From NCBI GenBank assembly GCA_004294135.1, contig RDZY01000009.1, positions 62,001 through 126,000 of the forward strand: a stretch of 64,000 nt of DNA, in the 5' to 3' direction. The stretch comes from Sphingobacteriia bacterium (GTDB lineage Bacteria; Bacteroidota; Bacteroidia; Chitinophagales; Chitinophagaceae). Below are positions 23,785 through 24,440 of this stretch, piece by piece. The translations under genes and the position numbers were made by a program. The notes under the pieces are model-generated. The model searched no databases. It saw nothing but the letters and a program-made list of their open reading frames with translations, and was not told where the DNA came from. Numbering within the stretch: position 1 is the stretch's first letter; every line of letters begins with the position of its first letter.

Positions 23785-24252
23785 TTAAGATTTATCCGAT
23801 TTTTTATCTACTTCCAGCATCACTTCTTGAGCGAGACTGCTGAATGCTTCTGGTGAAAAATCTTCAAAGAGCTGTTTGTATTTTGCTGCATCCCAAATCT
23901 CAAATCGGTCTAATGCCGCCGTAACCACGATGTCTTTAGATAGCTCGGCAAATTCTTTTAAGGAGGCAGGTAATAATAAACGACCCGCACTGTCCAGTTC
24001 AATTTCCGTGGCACCACCTAAAAACTGACGTCGGAATTGACGTACTTTTGGGTCAAAATCATTCAGTTGACTGATTTTGGCAATAATCAATTCCCAACTT
24101 TTTAACGGATATAATGTGAGACATTTTTCAAAGCCACGACCCAATATAAAGCTGCTCTCCCCCTCAGGCAACTGCTTTCGCAATCCTCCTGGAAGCAGAA
24201 ACCGCCCTTTGGCGTCTACTGTAGCTTCATATTCTCCGTGAAATCCGTGCAT
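23785..24252 (-). CDS. mraZ: Transcriptional regulator MraZ (start re-assigned to 24252)
   Basis: Two AbrB-like MraZ modules (GEYEATVDAKGRFLLPGGLR; GATEIELDSAGRLLLPASLKEFA). The ORF-track start at 24333 would read through the operator; MHGFHGEYEATVD at 24252 matches family N-termini. Confidence 0.95.
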   Translation of the reverse strand: MHGFHGEYEATVDAKGRFLLPGGLRKQLPEGESSFILGRGFEKCLTLYPLKSWELIIAKISQLNDFDPKVRQFRRQFLGGATEIELDSAGRLLLPASLKEFAELSKDIVVTAALDRFEIWDAAKYKQLFEDFSPEAFSSLAQEVMLEVDKKSDKS

Positions 24253-24274: not shown

Positions 24275-24314
24275 TTACCACTTGTTGACACAAAATAACA
24301 CTTTTTCCCACTTT
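24275..24314 (-). promoter_or_regulatory. Putative MraZ operator: four GTG-centred direct repeats at exact 10-bp spacing
   Basis: CAC (GTG on minus) at 24279, 24289, 24299, 24309; minus strand aaGTGGGAaa aaGTGTTAtt ttGTGTCAac aaGTGGTAat. Confidence 0.75.
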
Positions 24315-24339
24315 TAAAGCAAATATGGAGCATCTGTAT

Positions 24340-24348
24340 TTATCCACA
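24340..24348 (+). promoter_or_regulatory. Consensus DnaA box TTATCCACA
   Basis: Exact match read at 24340-24348. Confidence 0.6.
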
Positions 24349-24431
24349 GGAGTGAAATCAGCTAGAATTCAATCACAGCATAGCTATAAGCAGAAACACC
24401 TGAATTGACTACTGTATAACCTGTGAATTGC

Positions 24432-24440
24432 TGTGGATAA
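24432..24440 (-). promoter_or_regulatory. Consensus DnaA box (TGTGGATAA on +)
   Basis: Exact reverse complement of TTATCCACA, inverted relative to the 24340 box. Confidence 0.6.

Follow-up and report, generated by a model that had tools for sequence, protein, structure and literature searches.

Paired, spacing-locked DnaA boxes between mraZ and queA as putative operators of a replication and division regulon in Sediminibacterium

We consider the divergent region between mraZ and queA in a 64,000-nucleotide stretch of DNA (the whole of it is called the window here) from a genome of Sediminibacterium (Chitinophagaceae, Bacteroidota), the genus to which its closest named relatives belong. The region holds two inverted DnaA boxes with a spacing that is locked among relatives, and the same 9-mer recurs upstream of several replication genes. 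We propose, with a probability of about 0.7, that these boxes are operators through which DnaA would act on a regulon of replication and division genes, the spacing-locked pair being specific to mraZ-queA. DnaA probably helps to coordinate the timing of division with that of replication. The coupling of division to the initiation of replication in bacteria is an old open question; here the link would be written into conserved DNA that heads the entire division cluster, and it would offer specific sites to mutate and a set of genes under joint control. The features of the region are the following.

23785 to 24252, minus strand: mraZ, which opens the dcw cluster, start at 24252 (NCBIfam TIGR00242, over cut-off)
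24277 to 24311, minus strand: MraZ-type operator, four GTGKN repeats in 10-bp steps (GTGGG, GTGTT, GTGTC, GTGGT)
24291 to 24298, minus strand: predicted -7 element of the mraZ promoter, TTATTTTG (conserved as TTAWTTTG; one mismatch to TAnnTTTG)
24320 to 24323, minus strand: predicted -33 element of the mraZ promoter, TTTG (partly conserved; assigned by the Bacteroidota consensus TTTG / TAnnTTTG)
24340 to 24348, plus strand: DnaA box 1, mraZ-proximal, exact TTATCCACA, which is TGTGGATAA when read toward mraZ
24422 to 24430, minus strand: weak DnaA box 3, CAATTCACA (clade consensus CTATTCACA), in tandem with box 2 at a distance of 1 bp
24432 to 24440, minus strand: DnaA box 2, queA-proximal, exact TTATCCACA, 18 bp ahead of the queA start codon
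24459 to 25697, plus strand: queA, divergent (NCBIfam NF001140 and TIGR00113, over cut-off)

A preliminary description of this DNA had reported two perfect inverted boxes, 83 bp apart, in the mraZ-queA intergenic region, and both the coordinates and the two gene identities hold. The two boxes match the high-affinity DnaA-box consensus TTWTNCACA, exactly twice, and are the sole exact copies of TTATCCACA, the form of the consensus quoted in PMC8203912, in the window. That description had also called for counting the word genome-wide and by intergenic location. The 2.6-Mb genome has 12 copies, against 40 of the reversed control word and ~32 expected from base composition, which is not a background frequency; eight of the 12 sites (7 of 11 loci) are intergenic at a coding density of ~93%. 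Boxes 1 and 2 form the only TTATCCACA pair within 100 bp in this genome, where ~0.005 such pairs are expected. Because the 9-mer is rare and this is its sole close pair, the pair is not a product of chance. As a separate observation, TTATCCACA is about threefold scarcer than its reversed word in the window's genome, as would be seen if selection removed stray high-affinity DnaA sites.

The next question is whether the pair is kept in relatives. A box, 70 to 95 bases and an inverted box are found in 47 of the 61 genus genomes (TTAT form in 29, TTTT form in 31), at a single place per genome, and the reversed control word gives no match in the same paired pattern across all 61. Several of the genomes lacking a match have one altered base or no mraZ match. 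The pair adjoins mraZ in 14 of the 15 loci checked, the remaining locus being truncated, and the sites are also seen in 76 mraZ loci of named genomes, including Hydrotalea flava and Segetibacter. Among 62 non-redundant loci both boxes are kept as TTWTCCACA with a nearly invariant core, and position 3 alone commonly varies, between A and T; the degeneracy is restricted to the position that the DnaA consensus tolerates, as expected under selection for that consensus. From start to start, boxes 1 and 2 are 90-93 bp apart at 59 of these loci and 102 bp apart at three; the standard deviation is 1.1 bp (the three outliers left out), against ~39 for how far box 2 lies from a QueA motif, and the DNA between the boxes mostly drifts, with low information content. 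Box 3 shows in the box-2 logo, where columns 22-30 are conserved. Boxes and spacing are retained across the genus and beyond, and the preliminary description, which had staked its reading on conservation and on a frequency other than background, is borne out on both. A block that is conserved in the TTTT-type subclade, AAGWAATRAACC, comes after the mraZ-side box.

In the wider class, TTWTCCACA stands at most 250 bp upstream of mraZ in 6 of 29 other genomes; in four of the six it shares the strand of box 1 and falls at -86 to -102. Upstream of mraZ in these 29 genomes, a set of five control words yields a single match in all, and a composition model puts the probability of chance at ~2e-8. Because these class relatives keep mainly the promoter-side position, box 1 is the more widespread element and the pair looks like an elaboration of the Chitinophagaceae.

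We turn our attention to the other genes that carry the box. Exact sites favor intergenic positions in the window's genome and in the two complete genomes G017 and G010, and several of them are upstream of replication genes. In a sample of 1291 genes (1.56 Mb from two genomes, about half drawn around the origin), nine have a box within 200 bp upstream, including dnaE, dnaB, uvrB and the ppiD/oriC side. Within the genus, the box precedes gyrA at ~-126 to -132 in 12 of 13 genomes, G010 being the one without, and is kept there in 5 of 9 genomes from other families of the order. It lies at -51 to -68 before dnaE (13 of 13), at ~-120 to -130 before nrdJ, which encodes the class II ribonucleotide reductase (each of the 15 cases that include upstream sequence, some positions being shifted by the choice of start codon), and upstream of parE (3 of 3); dnaB has degenerate near-matches only (12 of 14). 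TTWTCCACA is absent near dnaA in eight genus genomes and at parC in eight loci, and its lack near dnaA in the genus loci examined rules out DnaA autoregulation through it. Exact boxes also precede further nucleotide genes, namely purK (window's genome and G017) and thyA (window's genome). Neither is taken as a firm regulon member, the positions being inconstant or the sites confined to one or two genomes, and the purK box-to-promoter distance falls outside the common pattern. Upstream of nrdJ, the DnaA box has beside it a second half in inverted orientation, conserved as TGTGCATAT or TGTTGATAT, and TTATCCCCA lies farther up, which suggests a multi-box operator. The class II reductase, present in most of the genus relatives examined, has no match in the window's genome, which may rely on a different class of ribonucleotide reductase or may have nrdJ in an assembly gap.

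The location of the boxes relative to the promoters can be compared once the Bacteroidota -7 and -33 elements are assigned by consensus. From alignments, the likely -7 elements are TATCTTCG (gyrA), TATTTTCG (nrdJ), GAnnTTTG (dnaE), TTAWTTTG (mraZ) and TAGATTTG (parE). The gap from box to -7 element is 29-31 bp at dnaE, 40-41 bp at mraZ, 41-42 bp at nrdJ, 49-50 bp at gyrA and 50 bp at parE (the last counted by hand from the sequences). These gaps cluster on roughly one helical face, with p ~0.004-0.016 in a circular test that is post hoc and covers five genes; box 1 would accordingly share its face with the single boxes at gyrA, parE, nrdJ and dnaE. At mraZ the 40-41 bp gap recurs in 71 mraZ matches, a fixed and conserved placement relative to the predicted promoter such as a DnaA-regulated promoter would have. 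The preliminary description had set one box at about the -35/-33 region; the box lies ~17 bp upstream of the predicted -33 element, a placement that suits an activator better than a blocker. The GTGKN repeats, with the 10-bp steps expected of an MraZ operator and conserved in the genus alignment, overlap the predicted -7 element and the spacer, and they resemble direct repeats (AAAGTG[T/G]) that have been described for MraZ of Mollicutes (PMC8475190). These repeats, box 3 and the wider set of box-bearing genes had gone unmentioned in the preliminary description.

The host protein and the origin also bear on the identity of the sites. The DnaA of this genome scores over the cut-off of TIGR00362, has an intact GGRDHTTV and can be aligned with 1J1V, the structure of domain IV from E. 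coli; the DNA-contacting residues, which we take to be R399, D433, H434, T435 and T436 of that structure, are all conserved, giving the canonical domain IV that DnaA boxes require. GC-skew minima with box clusters, mostly of weaker DnaA boxes, are located at 2.28-2.29 Mb in G017 (skew minimum 2.28 Mb, cluster 2.294 Mb, an agreement within ~15 kb) and at 0.950 Mb in G010, both at or near the ppiD-nadA interval, which holds the clusters. NadA is confirmed by its family model; ppiD is named from reading the sequence, over a short stretch that has no family match. This interval, away from dnaA, is the likely chromosomal origin (G017:C1:2294097-2294827 and G010:C1:949514-950031). The G017 candidate holds TTATTCACA-G-CTATTCACA, a tandem layout identical to that of boxes 2 and 3. 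The mraZ gene is at 2.99 Mb in G017 and 0.13 Mb in G010, ~0.7 and ~0.8 Mb from the skew switch.

Several other readings of the pair have to be weighed. Motifs of nine bases do arise randomly, but random origin would not hold them at fixed positions in dozens of species from which the control words are absent; rarity and conservation together exclude chance, for which we would allow a vanishingly small probability. The perfect complementarity of the boxes in the window could instead mean that they pair in RNA as a hairpin or attenuator. We dismiss this on the unmatched A/T changes: at least 10 of the 62 non-redundant loci combine a TTAT box with a TTTT box, uncompensated, and the homologous single boxes at other genes have no partner to pair with, which makes a hairpin very improbable. 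An equally slim prospect is that mraZ-queA is itself the chromosomal origin, as several DnaA boxes between two genes might suggest; it is excluded by the GC skew, which does not switch at this locus, and by the box cluster at ppiD-nadA, in two complete genomes.

Could TTWTCCACA be the operator of another transcription factor with a site like the DnaA box? Its absence at dnaA, and the fact that DnaA binding is deduced from sequence, leave some room for this. Yet the motif equals the DnaA consensus down to the A/T tolerance, recurs with its tandem layout in the candidate oriC, and marks replication genes in an organism with a canonical DnaA domain IV, and we regard another factor as improbable. 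Somewhat less improbable, though still unlikely, is that the pair mainly titrates DnaA or exchanges its nucleotide in the manner of datA or DARS, any effect on transcription being incidental. Several spacing-locked boxes far from oriC, unique to one locus per genome, are what such a site would look like; the single boxes at gyrA, nrdJ, dnaE and parE, with their similar placement relative to the promoter, and the retention of mainly the promoter-side position in distant class members (4 of 29, -86 to -102, same strand) are not.

Returning to the DnaA operators that we favor, the parts can be assembled into a model. Initiator DnaA would bind boxes 1 and 2 (TTWTCCACA) and the weak tandem box 3. 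At box 1 it would most likely contact RNA polymerase directly, activation being favored from the position. At the queA start, boxes 2 and 3 probably support a larger DnaA complex across the divergent region, in the form of a short loop or a cooperative bridge, which would modulate mraZ and may restrain queA. The negative arm would be MraZ on the repeats that overlap the promoter. DnaA would then set dcw transcription jointly with the genes of the replisome, topoisomerases and dNTP supply. The control of dcw transcription by DnaA that the preliminary description suggested is, as an inference, strongly supported by the conservation, the spacing and the shared replication genes, and it deserves to be widened to the other genes; the binding and its sign we infer. 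More tentatively, and at somewhat less than even odds, DnaA of the Chitinophagaceae may be a phased transcription factor for dnaE, dnaB, gyrA, parE, nrdJ and the whole dcw cluster; at mraZ-queA, a spacing-locked DnaA bridge and MraZ on one promoter would form a direct switch from initiation to division.

We close by comparing the region with known systems. The datA and DARS sites of E. coli are DnaA-control sites formed by non-origin clusters of DnaA boxes; the mraZ-queA cluster is likewise outside the origin, but its strong boxes are 83 bp apart and linked to a promoter. A Bacteroidota DnaA regulon is absent from the literature searched, which took in few of the subscription journals, and of 12 papers that contain both "DnaA box" and "mraZ", none has either term in its title or abstract. 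A review of DnaA mentions no Bacteroidota case of a link between division and replication (PMC8203912). In E. coli and Mollicutes, the MraZ operator consists of short GTG-containing direct repeats upstream of mraZ and serves autorepression (PMC8475190); here, unlike there, the repeats adjoin DnaA boxes, and two regulators would share the promoter.

For DnaA itself, three boxes upstream of E. coli ftsZ proved not to drive ftsZ transcription (PMC8203912), a caution against reading the mraZ-queA boxes as functional. The E. coli nrdAB promoter has DnaA boxes through which DnaA activates or represses according to its level and nucleotide (PMC8203912); the boxes before nrdJ are likewise upstream of a ribonucleotide reductase, although of class II and with another type of promoter. 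In B. subtilis, DnaA is bound at ftsL by ChIP, again an initiator site at a division-gene promoter, in another gene and phylum and with no paired architecture described (PMC8203912). The DnaA regulon of Caulobacter crescentus includes ftsZ, gcrA, mipZ, podJ, dnaB and the ribonucleotide reductase genes, and in it DnaA is a transcription factor that couples replication to division (PMC8203912). Both have DnaA boxes before division, replisome and ribonucleotide reductase genes; in Caulobacter ftsZ itself is the target and experiments exist, whereas the arrangement in these Bacteroidota, known from sequence alone, places a spacing-locked pair at the head of the dcw cluster.
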